In this document: in pieces, positions 54,072-59,246 of the stretch | Layout: each line of letters starts with the position of its first letter | How positions within the stretch are numbered: position 1 is the stretch's first letter | The notes under the pieces: model-generated | What the model was told of the DNA's origin: nothing | Databases searched by the model: none | What the model saw: only the letters and a program-made list of their open reading frames with translations | DNA from: a bacterium | GTDB lineage: Bacteria; Desulfobacterota; Binatia; DP-6 | Reading direction: 5' to 3' | DNA length: 64,000 bases | Assembly (NCBI GenBank): GCA_026129405.1 | Contig: JAHCID010000001.1 | Location: forward strand, 775,237 to 839,236 | Program-made: the position numbers and the translations under genes

Positions 54072-54698
54072 ATGTCCCCGATCGTCGTGGCGCTGCTCCT
54101 CGGTGTCGTGGTCGGCGGCGGCAACTGGTGGGCCCTCGGCCAGCTCGGCGTCGATCCGCAGACCGCCATGCCGTTCGTCGCGGCCATCTGCGGGGCGCCG
54201 CTGCTGGCGACGCTGCTGACCGCGCTCACCGCCCCGAAGGCGGCCGCGGGCGCCGCACCCGAGCCGGCCGCGAAGGCCGCGCTCGCGCCGGCGAAGCCGT
54301 CGCCGAAGCCGGTCGAGCCGCCGGAGCACACCGCGCTCCGCCTTCTCGCCGCCCTCCAGGAAGAAGGACGCCTGGTCGACTTCCTCACCGAGGACATCGG
54401 CCCCTACTCCGACGAGCAGGTCGGCGCCGCCACGCGCGGCATCCACGCGTCGTGCGCGAAGGCGCTGCAGAGCTACGTCCGCCTCGAGCCCGTTCTCGCC
54501 GGCAAGGAGGAGGACACGGTCACGGTCCCCGCCGGCTTCGATCCCGCCACCATCCGCCTCACCGGCAACGTGCAGGGGCAGCCGCCGTTCAAGGGCGTGC
54601 TGCGTCACCCCGGCTGGAAGGCCGCGAGCGCGACGATCCCGCCGCGCGCCGGTCTCGACCCGCGCATCATCGCCCCGGCCGAGGTCGAGATCGCCTGA
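54072..54698 (+). CDS. DUF2760 membrane-anchored protein, partner of the Hsp70 pair
   Basis: 208 residues. Two hydrophobic segments (about 3-24 IVVALLLGVVVGGGNWWAL, and 34-55), then an Ala/Pro/Lys-rich linker (56-88) and a conserved soluble domain: HTALRLLAALQEEGRLVDFLTEDIGPYSDEQVGAATRGIHASCAKALQSYVRLEPV and NVQGQPPFKGVLRHPGWKA, the DUF2760 signature. The protein would sit in the inner membrane with the domain in the cytoplasm, where the Hsp70s are. Stop to the next ATG is 10 bases. Known only as a gene neighbour of Hsp70-like proteins; function unknown. Confidence 0.88.
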   Translation: MSPIVVALLLGVVVGGGNWWALGQLGVDPQTAMPFVAAICGAPLLATLLTALTAPKAAAGAAPEPAAKAALAPAKPSPKPVEPPEHTALRLLAALQEEGRLVDFLTEDIGPYSDEQVGAATRGIHASCAKALQSYVRLEPVLAGKEEDTVTVPAGFDPATIRLTGNVQGQPPFKGVLRHPGWKAASATIPPRAGLDPRIIAPAEVEIA

Positions 54699-54708
54699 CG
54701 GACGCGTG

Positions 54709-56490: not shown

Positions 56491-56507
56491 CGCCGGGGCG
56501 GCCGGCG

Positions 56508-59246
56508 ATGGCGGCGCGCTATCTGGTCGGCATCGACCTCGGCACCACCAACACGGCGTGCGCCTACGTCGACACGCAGGGCGGCCGCACGATCCACGTC
56601 TTCGACGTGCCGCAGCTGGTGGCCGCGGGACGCGTCGAGCCGCGGCCGACGCTGCCGTCGTTCGTCTACCTCGCCGGCGCGCACGACGTGCCCCCGGGAA
56701 GCCTCGACCTACCCTGGGCGGCGGACCGCGACTGGTGCGTCGGCGTGTTCGCGCGCGAGCAGGGCGCCCGCGTGCCGGGGCGGCTGGTGGCGTCGGCGAA
56801 GTCGTGGCTGTGCCACGGCGGCGTCGACCGCACCGCGAAGATACTGCCGTGGGGTGCGGGCGACGAGGTCGCGAAGATATCGCCCGTCGAGGCGTCGGCG
56901 CGCGTGCTCGGCCATCTGCGCGAGGCGTGGGACGCGACCTTCCCCGCGTCGCTCGCCGAGCAGGCCGTCGTGCTGACGGTGCCGGCGTCGTTCGACGAGG
57001 TGGCGCGCGAGCTGACCCTGGAGGCGGCGCGCCAGGCGGGGCTGCCCGACGTCGTGCTGCTCGAGGAGCCGCAGGCGGCGTTCTACGCCTGGCTCGGCAC
57101 GCACGAGGCCGACTGGAAGGCGCGGGTCACGGCGACGCCGCTCGTACTGGTCGTCGACGTCGGCGGCGGCACGACCGACTTCTCGCTCATCGCCGCGCGC
57201 CAGGGCCGCGGCGAGCTGACGCTCGAGCGCGCCGCGGTCGGCGATCACCTGCTGCTCGGCGGCGACAACATGGACATCGCGCTCGCGCGCGCCTCGGAGG
57301 CGCGGCTCGCGCGCGGCACGCCGCTCGACTCCGGCCGCTTCCACGCGCTCGTCAGCCAGTGCCGCGCCGCCAAGGAGCGGCTGCTCGACGATCCGACGCT
57401 GGGCGCCGTGCGCGTCACCGTGCCGGGGCGCAGCGGGGCCGTCGTCGGCGGCACGCTGCACGACGACCTGGCGCGCGCCGAGGTGGAGGCGACGGTGCTG
57501 GACGGCTTCTTCCCGTCCGTCGGCGGCGACGCCCGGCCGCGCCGGCAGACGGGGCTCGCGCTGCGCGAGTGGGGTCTGCCGTTCGCGAGCGATCCGGAGA
57601 TCACGCGCCACGTCGCCGACTTCCTCGAGCGCCAGCGGGAGGCCGCGGGCGAGGCCGAGCGCGCGCTCGTGCGGCCCGACGCGATCCTCTTCAACGGCGG
57701 CGCCTGCGAGCCGGAGGTCGTACGCGACCGTGTCGCCGACGTGATCGGCCGCTGGCACGCGCCGGACGGCGCGTGGCGCCCGGCGGTGCTCGAAGGGCAG
57801 TCGCTCCAGCTCGCCGTCGCGCGAGGCGCCGCCTACTTCGGCCTCGTGCGCCGCGGCGACGGCGTACGCATCGGCAGCGGCGCGGCGCGCAGCTACTACC
57901 TCGGGCTGTCCGGGGAGCAGGCGCTCTGCCTCGTGCCGCGCGGCATGGACGCGGGCGAGCGCGTGGCGATCGAGGGCCACGACCTCGAGATGCTCGCGAA
58001 CCGTCCCGTCTCCTTTCCGCTCTTCACCGCCGTCGATCGCAGCGGCGAGCGCACCGGTGATCTGGTCGCGATCGACGCGCAGGCCATGCGGGCGCTGCCG
58101 CCGATTCGCACCGTGCTGCGCTTCGGCAAGAAGCTCGTCGAGCGCGCGTTGCCCGTGCAGCTGGAAGTGCTGTTGACGGAGATCGGCACGCTCGAGGTGT
58201 GGTGTCGCTCGCGCGAGACGGACCACCGCTGGCGGCTCGAGTTCCGCCTGCGCGACGTGGTCGCGGCCGAGGCGCCGCCGCCGGACGCCGAGGGCGGGGA
58301 GGGCGTGCTGGTCGTCGAGCCCGCGCGGCTCGAGGAAGCGACGGCGATCCTGCGTGCGACCTTCGCCGGCGGCGACGACCCGGTGACGCTCATGCGGCGC
58401 CTCGAAGGCGCGCTCGACGCCGGCCGCGACGCCTGGCCGCTGGCCGCGATCCGCGCCCTCTGGGACGTGCTGTGGGAGCTCGAGTCGGCGCGCGCCCGCA
58501 CGCCGGAGCACGAGACGCGCTGGCTGAATCTGGCCGGCTTCCTCCTGCGGCCGGGCTTCGGCGACCCCGGCGACGAGATCCGCGTCGGCCGGCTGTGGCG
58601 CGTGCTCGGCGCCGATCTCCGCCACCCGCGCGCCGTCCAGGGCCGCGCCGAGTGGTGGAACCTGTGGAAGCGCGCCGCCGGCGGCCTCGCCGCGCGCCAG
58701 CAGCAGCACCTGTACCAGCAGGTCGCGTCGGCGTTGCTCAAGAAGAAGACGAAGGGCCCGCGGCCCGGGCCGCAGGAGCTGCGCGAGATGTGGCAGGCGA
58801 TCGGCGCCTGCGAGCGGCTCGCGGCGGCGACCCGCAGTGAGCTTTCCGAAGTGCTCGCGGCGAACGCCGCCCGCGGCAGGACGACCGATCAGGAGCTGTG
58901 GGCGCTCGCCCGGCTCGCCGCCCGCGTGCCGATCTACGGGCCGCAGAACACGATCGTGCCGCGCGACGTCGCCGCGACGCTCGCCGAGCGGCTGCTCCGC
59001 GCCGAGTGGACGCGCCCGGGTGCGACCGCGTTCGCGTTGACGCAGATCGCGCGCGCCACCGGCGACCGCGAGCGCGACCTCGACGCCGCGCTGCGCGAGC
59101 GCGTCGCCGCGCGGCTCGAGGCCCTACCCGACGGCGCGCGCAACGCCCGCATCGTGCGCGAGCCCGTGGCCCTCGAGGCGCGCGAGCAGGCTCGCCTGCT
59201 CGACGAGGCGTTGCCCGCGGGGCTGCGGCTGCGGCCCGCCGACTGA
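56508..59246 (+). CDS. Non-canonical Hsp70 family protein with C-terminal DUF3731-like region (second of pair)
   Basis: 912 residues. The first 590 parallel the preceding gene: GIDLGTTNT (D10), RLVASAKSWLCHGGVDRTAKILPWGAG, PASFDEVARELTLEAARQAGL, VDVGGGTTD (D217), GDNMDIALAR, LFNGGACEP, and TEIGTLEVWC. The extra 300 residues are helical (ARTPEHETRWLNLAGFLLRPGFGDPGDEIRVGRLWRVL, WWNLWKRAAGGLAARQQQHLYQQV, EMWQAIGACERLAAATRSEL) and match my memory of the DUF3731 tail of these Hsp70s. Likely works with its paralogue and the membrane DUF2760 protein. No dnaJ or grpE nearby. Confidence 0.9.
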   Translation: MAARYLVGIDLGTTNTACAYVDTQGGRTIHVFDVPQLVAAGRVEPRPTLPSFVYLAGAHDVPPGSLDLPWAADRDWCVGVFAREQGARVPGRLVASAKSWLCHGGVDRTAKILPWGAGDEVAKISPVEASARVLGHLREAWDATFPASLAEQAVVLTVPASFDEVARELTLEAARQAGLPDVVLLEEPQAAFYAWLGTHEADWKARVTATPLVLVVDVGGGTTDFSLIAARQGRGELTLERAAVGDHLLLGGDNMDIALARASEARLARGTPLDSGRFHALVSQCRAAKERLLDDPTLGAVRVTVPGRSGAVVGGTLHDDLARAEVEATVLDGFFPSVGGDARPRRQTGLALREWGLPFASDPEITRHVADFLERQREAAGEAERALVRPDAILFNGGACEPEVVRDRVADVIGRWHAPDGAWRPAVLEGQSLQLAVARGAAYFGLVRRGDGVRIGSGAARSYYLGLSGEQALCLVPRGMDAGERVAIEGHDLEMLANRPVSFPLFTAVDRSGERTGDLVAIDAQAMRALPPIRTVLRFGKKLVERALPVQLEVLLTEIGTLEVWCRSRETDHRWRLEFRLRDVVAAEAPPPDAEGGEGVLVVEPARLEEATAILRATFAGGDDPVTLMRRLEGALDAGRDAWPLAAIRALWDVLWELESARARTPEHETRWLNLAGFLLRPGFGDPGDEIRVGRLWRVLGADLRHPRAVQGRAEWWNLWKRAAGGLAARQQQHLYQQVASALLKKKTKGPRPGPQELREMWQAIGACERLAAATRSELSEVLAANAARGRTTDQELWALARLAARVPIYGPQNTIVPRDVAATLAERLLRAEWTRPGATAFALTQIARATGDRERDLDAALRERVAARLEALPDGARNARIVREPVALEAREQARLLDEALPAGLRLRPAD

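Follow-up and report, generated by a model that had tools for sequence, protein, structure and literature searches.

We analysed a 64,000-nucleotide stretch of DNA, referred to throughout as the window, that spans positions 775,237 to 839,236 of contig JAHCID010000001.1 (GCA_026129405.1; Binatia, DP-6; G000:C1:775237-839236 in our numbering, genome G000 having 5.63 Mb in 15 contigs) and that carries three consecutive genes encoding a DUF2760 protein and two Hsp70-like proteins, here called Hsp70a and Hsp70b. The three very probably constitute a real and widespread module assembled from known families, and in two surveys the co-inheritance of DUF2760 and Hsp70b is almost perfect. We propose, at what we judge to be even odds, that this is an auxiliary Hsp70 module that works independently of J-proteins and in which DUF2760 acts as the dedicated regulator instead. 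A preliminary description made from the sequence had suggested an uncharacterised chaperone system; no open-access paper describing the three genes as a system was found, nor any mention of DUF2760, DUF3731, PF10816 or PF12531 in the open-access literature, and both the recurrence of the trio and the dedicated pairing of its members are strongly supported.

Gene organization and family assignment

The trio and the segment discussed below are as follows.

54072–54698, + strand: DUF2760 gene, 208 aa (PF10816 match, AlphaFold2 model, conservation over 100 relatives)
54709–56490, + strand: Hsp70a gene, 593 aa, with an ATPase domain and the beta part of the substrate-binding domain (SBDβ) and no lid (PF00012, identity to Hsp70b, invariant catalytic residues)
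56508–59246, + strand: Hsp70b gene, 912 aa (PF00012, PF12531, AlphaFold2 model, DnaK superposition)
56793–56855, + strand: ASAKSWL..LPWG segment of Hsp70b, residues ~96–116, equivalent to the DnaK Lys70 segment (multiple alignment with E. coli DnaK, HscA and HscC)

The genes share one strand with stop-to-start gaps of 10 bp (DUF2760 to Hsp70a) and 17 bp (Hsp70a to Hsp70b), in agreement with the preliminary description; a GTG at 54706 is a possible alternative start for Hsp70a. The Pfam search proposed there as a check returned matches above the cut-off for all three proteins. The DUF2760 protein matches PF10816 over residues 86–206 (E = 3.5e-46, 156.5 bits against a curated cut-off of 25), Hsp70a and Hsp70b match PF00012 across the ATPase core (E = 3.9e-15 and 1.7e-17), and residues 666–908 of Hsp70b match PF12531 (DUF3731, 'DNA-K related protein'; E = 4.3e-75, 253.2 bits against a cut-off of 25). 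The two Hsp70s are 48% identical to each other across ~590 residues (Hsp70b residues 3–582), and neither reaches the NCBIfam cut-offs for DnaK, HscA or YegD, the scores being far lower (for the HscA equivalog, 88.8 bits against 708.55). Candidatus Binatia contigs are among the sources of the closest Hsp70 relatives.

DUF2760 and Hsp70b are retained together

Gene order was surveyed at 108 DUF2760 loci, of which 28 belong to the window's phylum and 80 come from many phyla; 103 of them had at least 800 bp downstream, the next relative was sought within 2.5 kb, and one genome present in both locus sets (L031/L080) entered the strand and adjacency figures only once. The gene next downstream of DUF2760 is an Hsp70 of the module in 90 of the 103 loci (Hsp70a in 82, Hsp70b in 8), which bears out the statement in the preliminary description that the trio recurs in other bacteria. 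DUF2760 genes mostly standing alone had been named as the pattern that would speak against a shared function, and the opposite was found, only 13 of the 103 loci having no following Hsp70. All 161 neighbouring Hsp70s lie on the strand of DUF2760, in the order DUF2760–Hsp70a–Hsp70b, and both are present at 54 of the 75 loci with 6.5 kb downstream. No DUF2760–Hsp70 fusion occurs among the loci. A shared fourth gene, J-protein or GrpE was considered and rejected as a neighbourhood partner for want of a common family: none recurs across lineages at the 108 loci, where recurrent families track taxonomy, and neither metabolic pathway genes nor (in the window and these neighbourhoods) isc genes recur beside the trio. 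As had been noted, no J-protein or GrpE gene lies near the trio in the window's genome, which has a normal GrpE, DnaK and DnaJ cluster about 490 kb away (C1:1316985-1319718) and has DnaJ-domain proteins.

Presence across whole genomes gives the same picture. DUF2760 is found in 29, DUF3731 in 28 and both in 27 of 247 genomes of the window's phylum (hypergeometric p = 1e-32, a value that ignores descent), and the exceptions, G041, G042 and G078, are 85, 67 and 62% complete. A second phylum, reached through locus L070 and suggested by its relatives to be Myxococcota, has DUF2760 in 123, DUF3731 in 129 and both in 122 of 195 genomes, and the control genomes, E. coli included, contain neither. Adjacency is not the cause of this co-retention, because unlinked genomes still hold DUF3731: it is present in 22 of 25 genomes picked mainly for an Hsp70b that does not adjoin DUF2760 (a few had DUF2760–Hsp70b or complete trio loci), and in 8 of the 10 where DUF2760 has no neighbouring Hsp70. 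In six Planctomycetota genomes (G247, G248, G249, G250, G252 and G253) Hsp70a and Hsp70b are on separate contigs and neither is at the DUF2760 locus, yet all three genes persist.

Among 72,556 plasmid records, Hsp70b and DUF2760 queries match an identical set of 11. Two Bradyrhizobium plasmids typed as conjugative keep the order DUF2760–Hsp70a–Hsp70b intact. On pCC829_3 of Bradyrhizobium barranii (110 kb, conjugative; L151 8746-14155) the trio stands beside trb conjugation genes and is therefore able to travel as a cassette; on pCB82_1 of Bradyrhizobium sp. CB82 (typed conjugative; L154 8752-17263) groES–groEL lie ~1 kb downstream of it. One of the 11 records, a Thiodictyon plasmid, has DUF2760 and Hsp70a only. 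On Thiodictyon syntrophicum pTs485 (L152 8695-11213) these two genes sit inside an annotated anti-phage island with DUF3780, DUF1156, phospholipase D-like and TIR genes, a single case; a role as a defence system was rejected, the Hsp70 core having only weak similarity to a PADLOC candidate (E = 4e-5 and 8e-4). Within the window's class, DUF2760 is absent from all nine genomes sampled (G018, G056, G092, G121, G149, G174, G198, G221 and G243), so the module is patchy in this class, through loss or horizontal gain.

Because Hsp70a can be absent, DUF2760 and Hsp70b are the core pair. In G134, G155, G204 and G228 DUF2760 is accompanied by an Hsp70b of 911–951 aa as the sole strong relative, and the same pair without Hsp70a is seen at L060–L062, L112 and L139 (genomes G264–G268). 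Hsp70a without Hsp70b was seen only in incomplete or metagenome-assembled genomes (G042, G078 and G261) and the Thiodictyon plasmid, represented by the plasmid sequence only. In a quick ATPase-domain tree with long outgroup branches, all Hsp70a sequences form one clade (Shimodaira–Hasegawa-like approximate likelihood-ratio support of 95) next to which the Hsp70b sequences stand, and the two halves group in similar ways; one old duplication followed by shared descent would be the simplest reading of this tree, not proof.

The ATPase site is conserved and the J-docking site is replaced

We aligned 82 Hsp70a and 64 Hsp70b sequences with DnaK, HscA, HscC and YegD of E. coli MG1655. Residues D8, T11, K70, E171, D194, T199, D201, G228, G229 and K270 (DnaK numbering) are invariant in the 82 Hsp70a and the 64 Hsp70b, as expected from the complete ATPase core first described. 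The insert that both Hsp70s were thought to share, and DnaK to lack, is no insert: ASAKSWL aligns with DnaK FAIKRLIG and LPW with DnaK MPF, and the lysine of the segment (K98 of Hsp70b) is the catalytic K70. The idea was accordingly dropped.

In DnaK, J-domains act around Y145, D148, R167, N170, the leucine linker and D393. In Hsp70a and Hsp70b, Y145 is replaced by S, N147 by D and N170 by E in 100% of sequences; D148 is mostly A or E, R167 is mostly T or V (and is kept in 3% of Hsp70a), and D393 is also replaced. The DnaK linker VLLLD gives way to polar or glycine residues in every Hsp70a and Hsp70b, with no leucine triplet. The window's genome itself encodes a DnaK and an HscA with the full J-docking set. 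As read from these alignments, then, the J-domain docking surface is rewritten in Hsp70a and Hsp70b while the ATPase engine is kept.

A predicted complete SBDβ and a helical arm in place of the lid

The AlphaFold2 model of Hsp70b (62-row alignment; predicted local distance difference test, pLDDT, 88; predicted template modelling score 0.86) has an ATPase domain (~1–450), an SBDβ (~457–583), a flexible joint (~583–603, of low confidence at 583–601) and a helical DUF3731 domain (604–898). Residues 3–583 of the model superpose on residues 2–505 of E. coli DnaK in its stimulating state (7kru_A; Z = 35.2, 471 residues, root-mean-square deviation 4.2), and Hsp70b is therefore predicted to have a full SBDβ; Foldseek matches Hsp70b to 7kru_B with E = 1.5e-20. 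An SBDβ is predicted for Hsp70a by homology, given the identity of the two paralogues. Both proteins had been described as ending in a short beta region, of which the beta part stands and 'short' does not, the model superposing over the whole SBDβ. The helical lid (SBDα) is indeed missing: Hsp70a stops at SBDβ, and Hsp70b runs on through the disordered joint into a helical domain that matches DUF3731 only. This separate domain in the model is the helical extension of ~300 residues that had been recognized in the sequence. A sequence search of the PDB for relatives of DUF2760 and DUF3731 gave helical designs or chance matches as the best hits (E = 7e-4, over the membrane/tether region, and 0.02).

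Membrane placement of DUF2760 varies with lineage

The DUF2760 protein of the window has membrane helices at residues 3–25 and 33–53, a low-complexity tether and a conserved domain (~84–208) that ends in the near-invariant motif APAEVEI and that contains many residues invariant among 100 relatives. Its AlphaFold2 model (pLDDT 88 overall and ~96 over the domain) has two N-terminal helices. Foldseek found no PDB match to it at E ≤ 0.001, and a second structural comparison aligned mostly the membrane hairpin and barely covered the domain. In two-span DUF2760 proteins the density of lysine plus arginine falls from 0.21 ahead of the first span to 0.06 in the stretch separating the two and rises again to 0.19 beyond the second, a pattern consistent with both ends being cytoplasmic, on the side expected for the Hsp70s.

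The two spans first described hold for the window and most Desulfobacterota. N-termini read by eye have one span in Planctomycetota and, in the sampled Verrucomicrobiota, Myxococcota and Acidobacteriota, only an amphipathic helix, for example SFLARLRTALSCFTGALAS; predicted counts of zero-span proteins are inflated by start codons set too late in some cases (e.g., L039 and L031). As the number of spans varies by lineage, membrane tethering is a lineage trait, and in non-spanning lineages it is possibly peripheral. The suggestion that the machine may act at the membrane thus survives for some lineages and fails for the spanless ones, and membrane action was rejected as the common function, many lineages having no DUF2760 span.

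Probable module genes in earlier screens

Single genes that probably belong to the module turn up in published screens (PMC9201469, PMC5816637, PMC8265645). Pan et al. 2021 deleted M. xanthus MXAN_5323, a 925 aa Hsp70 distant from DnaK; sporulation and H2O2 survival were lowered, whilst motility and predation stayed close to normal, and the protein failed to rescue an E. coli dnaK mutant (PMC8265645). In transcriptomics, though not by quantitative PCR, the MXAN_5323 transcript departed from the otherwise unchanged heat response (PMC8265645). Hsp70b of Myxococcus dinghuensis (L077) and that of L070 are also 925 aa (from coordinates), and because of this equal length we take MXAN_5323 as the Hsp70b orthologue. 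L070 itself is labelled Comamonas sp. KCTC 72670 and has a trio like that of Myxococcus, with the 925 aa Hsp70b and a DUF2760 N-terminus near-identical to that of L077; its organism label looks wrong. StkA of M. xanthus was considered as a module member and rejected (540 aa, flanked by an SCP2-like gene).

In V. cholerae, VC1373 and VC1374 are consecutive, annotated as DnaK-related and part of an operon, VC1373–1375 (PMC9201469, PMC5816637), and HapR activates the VC1375 promoter (PMC10328515); we infer that VC1375 is DUF2760. By annotation and length only, VC1373/VC1374 and MXAN_5323 probably belong to the PF10816/PF12531 families.

Other features of the window, genome and loci

Downstream of the trio, the gene at 59334-60767 encodes two outer-membrane beta-barrel stretches and precedes a gene (60777-62321) for a protein with a HAMP and an adenylate/guanylate cyclase domain. 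The genome has two more distant Hsp70-like frames (G000:C2:821909-822202 and G000:C1:1199879-1200862, in open frames of 1178 and 815 aa), which come on top of DnaK, an HscA-like protein and the Hsp70a/Hsp70b pair. At L033 (5578-6462) and L050 (6970-7854) the neighbour of Hsp70a is a member of one common unnamed family of ~290 aa, with no Hsp70b nearby. A conserved gene of ~670 aa and a lipoprotein-like gene precede DUF2760 in one group of loci, L038, L044, L050, L056 and L057, the last of which keeps DUF2760 with these preceding genes despite having no neighbouring Hsp70.

Proposed mechanism and alternatives

J-proteins are regarded as essential for the chaperone work of Hsp70s. In the mechanism that we propose, Hsp70a and Hsp70b would clamp clients with their ATP turnover set by DUF2760 and the DUF3731 arm rather than by a J-protein. 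DUF2760 would be a dedicated regulator or adaptor of the two Hsp70s and in many lineages would tether the machine to the inner membrane on its cytoplasmic side, and the DUF3731 arm would hold clients or a partner in place of the lid. The module would serve recovery from oxidative and developmental stress and would not be a general folding machine, a role suggested by the MXAN_5323 phenotypes and by the plasmid trio ~1 kb upstream of groES–groEL. That MXAN_5323 by itself fails in E. coli, an organism with no DUF2760, fits this mechanism, and other explanations exist.

Several points weigh against it. Contact between the proteins, ATPase activity and client binding are predictions. J-independence is read from residue replacement, and docking of a diverged J-protein at another site is conceivable; the linker column is uncertain, two alignments placing the linker differently, neither with a leucine triplet. 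An ordinary DnaK substrate domain had been named beforehand as a sign against a distinct chaperone system: the SBDβ fold is ordinary, and the linker, J-docking site and C-terminal domain are not. Deletions of three other minor M. xanthus Hsp70s have the same phenotypes as that of MXAN_5323 (PMC8265645), which is probably the Myxococcus Hsp70b, by length and family alone. Four genomes with DUF2760 (G255, G256, G261 and G292) have no DUF3731 match, and the co-occurrence p-values ignore shared ancestry.

The main rival, which we consider unlikely, is that DUF2760 is a specific client or scaffold matured or remodelled by the Hsp70s, as HscA acts on the Fe-S scaffold IscU. A chaperone with a single client would also be expected to show the obligate pairing, one to one, that DUF2760 has with Hsp70b, and the small conserved domain of DUF2760 contains many invariant residues. 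However, a client of this kind should have a place in some known biochemical family, and Pfam, NCBIfam and PDB sequence and structure searches gave none for DUF2760; nor do pathway genes recur beside the trio.

It is rather improbable that the Hsp70s are ATP-driven regulators and not chaperones, a signalling switch of the kind proposed for the Myxococcus Hsp70-like protein StkA. The lack of dnaK complementation by MXAN_5323 (PMC8265645) and the absence of a lid from both Hsp70s would suit a switch, yet the SBDβ appears to be kept with the DnaK fold in the model, and the reported phenotypes, stress recovery and sporulation, involve more than one pathway.

We also think it quite improbable that the pair resembles Hsp70 and Hsp110, with Hsp70a as the chaperone and Hsp70b as its nucleotide-exchange factor replacing GrpE. 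The two are old paralogues that apparently split once and then travelled together, and Hsp70b has a long C-terminal extension like that of Hsp110; however, an exchange-factor role is disfavoured because Hsp70b outlives Hsp70a, persisting with DUF2760 alone (G134, G155, G204, G228, G264, G265 and three Binatia genomes), and every catalytic residue is kept in Hsp70b. Ordinary extra Hsp70s that use the cell's DnaJ and GrpE, with DUF2760 merely placing them at the membrane, would suit a genome with DnaJ-domain proteins and GrpE and a DUF2760 that spans the membrane, but are very improbable when Hsp70a and Hsp70b of every lineage have substitutions at the J-docking positions, which DnaK and HscA of the same genome conserve, and when the pairing persists in many lineages with no DUF2760 span.

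Relation to known systems

The module shares with DnaK/Hsp70 of E. coli and human the ATPase fold and active site and the SBDβ fold, and its predicted two-domain arrangement fits the stimulating state of DnaK. It differs in having no lid, no leucine linker and replaced J-docking residues, and in having a DUF3731 arm on one of two paralogues and a dedicated DUF2760 partner. The Fe-S pair HscA–HscB likewise has a dedicated Hsp70 gene adjoining a partner gene, but there the Hsp70 works with a J-protein, HscB, and its J-docking residues, linker and lid are intact, whereas the module has no J-protein. E. coli YegD is also Hsp70-like without J-docking residues; unlike the module it has no substrate-binding domain in the alignment (~450 aa), has leucine at the K70 position and is a single gene. 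Hsp110/Grp170 with Hsp70 is likewise a pair of paralogous Hsp70s in which one member is extended at its C terminus, but in the module the long member, Hsp70b, is the one retained and both keep the active site. The module proteins belong to the same PF10816 (DUF2760) and PF12531 (DUF3731) families that were known before as single-gene annotations; the families are known, and the module is undescribed as a system.

More tentatively, and with the chances somewhat against it, we suggest that DUF2760 stands in for the J-protein as an Hsp70 co-factor of a new class and controls two lidless, J-insensitive Hsp70s, one of which has a helical client-handling arm. This would make the module a complete second Hsp70 machine beside DnaK–DnaJ–GrpE in Desulfobacterota, Myxococcota, Planctomycetota, Verrucomicrobiota, Acidobacteriota, some Pseudomonadota and other groups. 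If true, there would be another way to drive the Hsp70 cycle, through a small partner and without a J-protein. The proposal offers a hypothesis about what DUF2760 and DUF3731, both of them Pfam domains of unknown function, do in the cell, and M. xanthus probably carries the module, so that the hypothesis is testable there.

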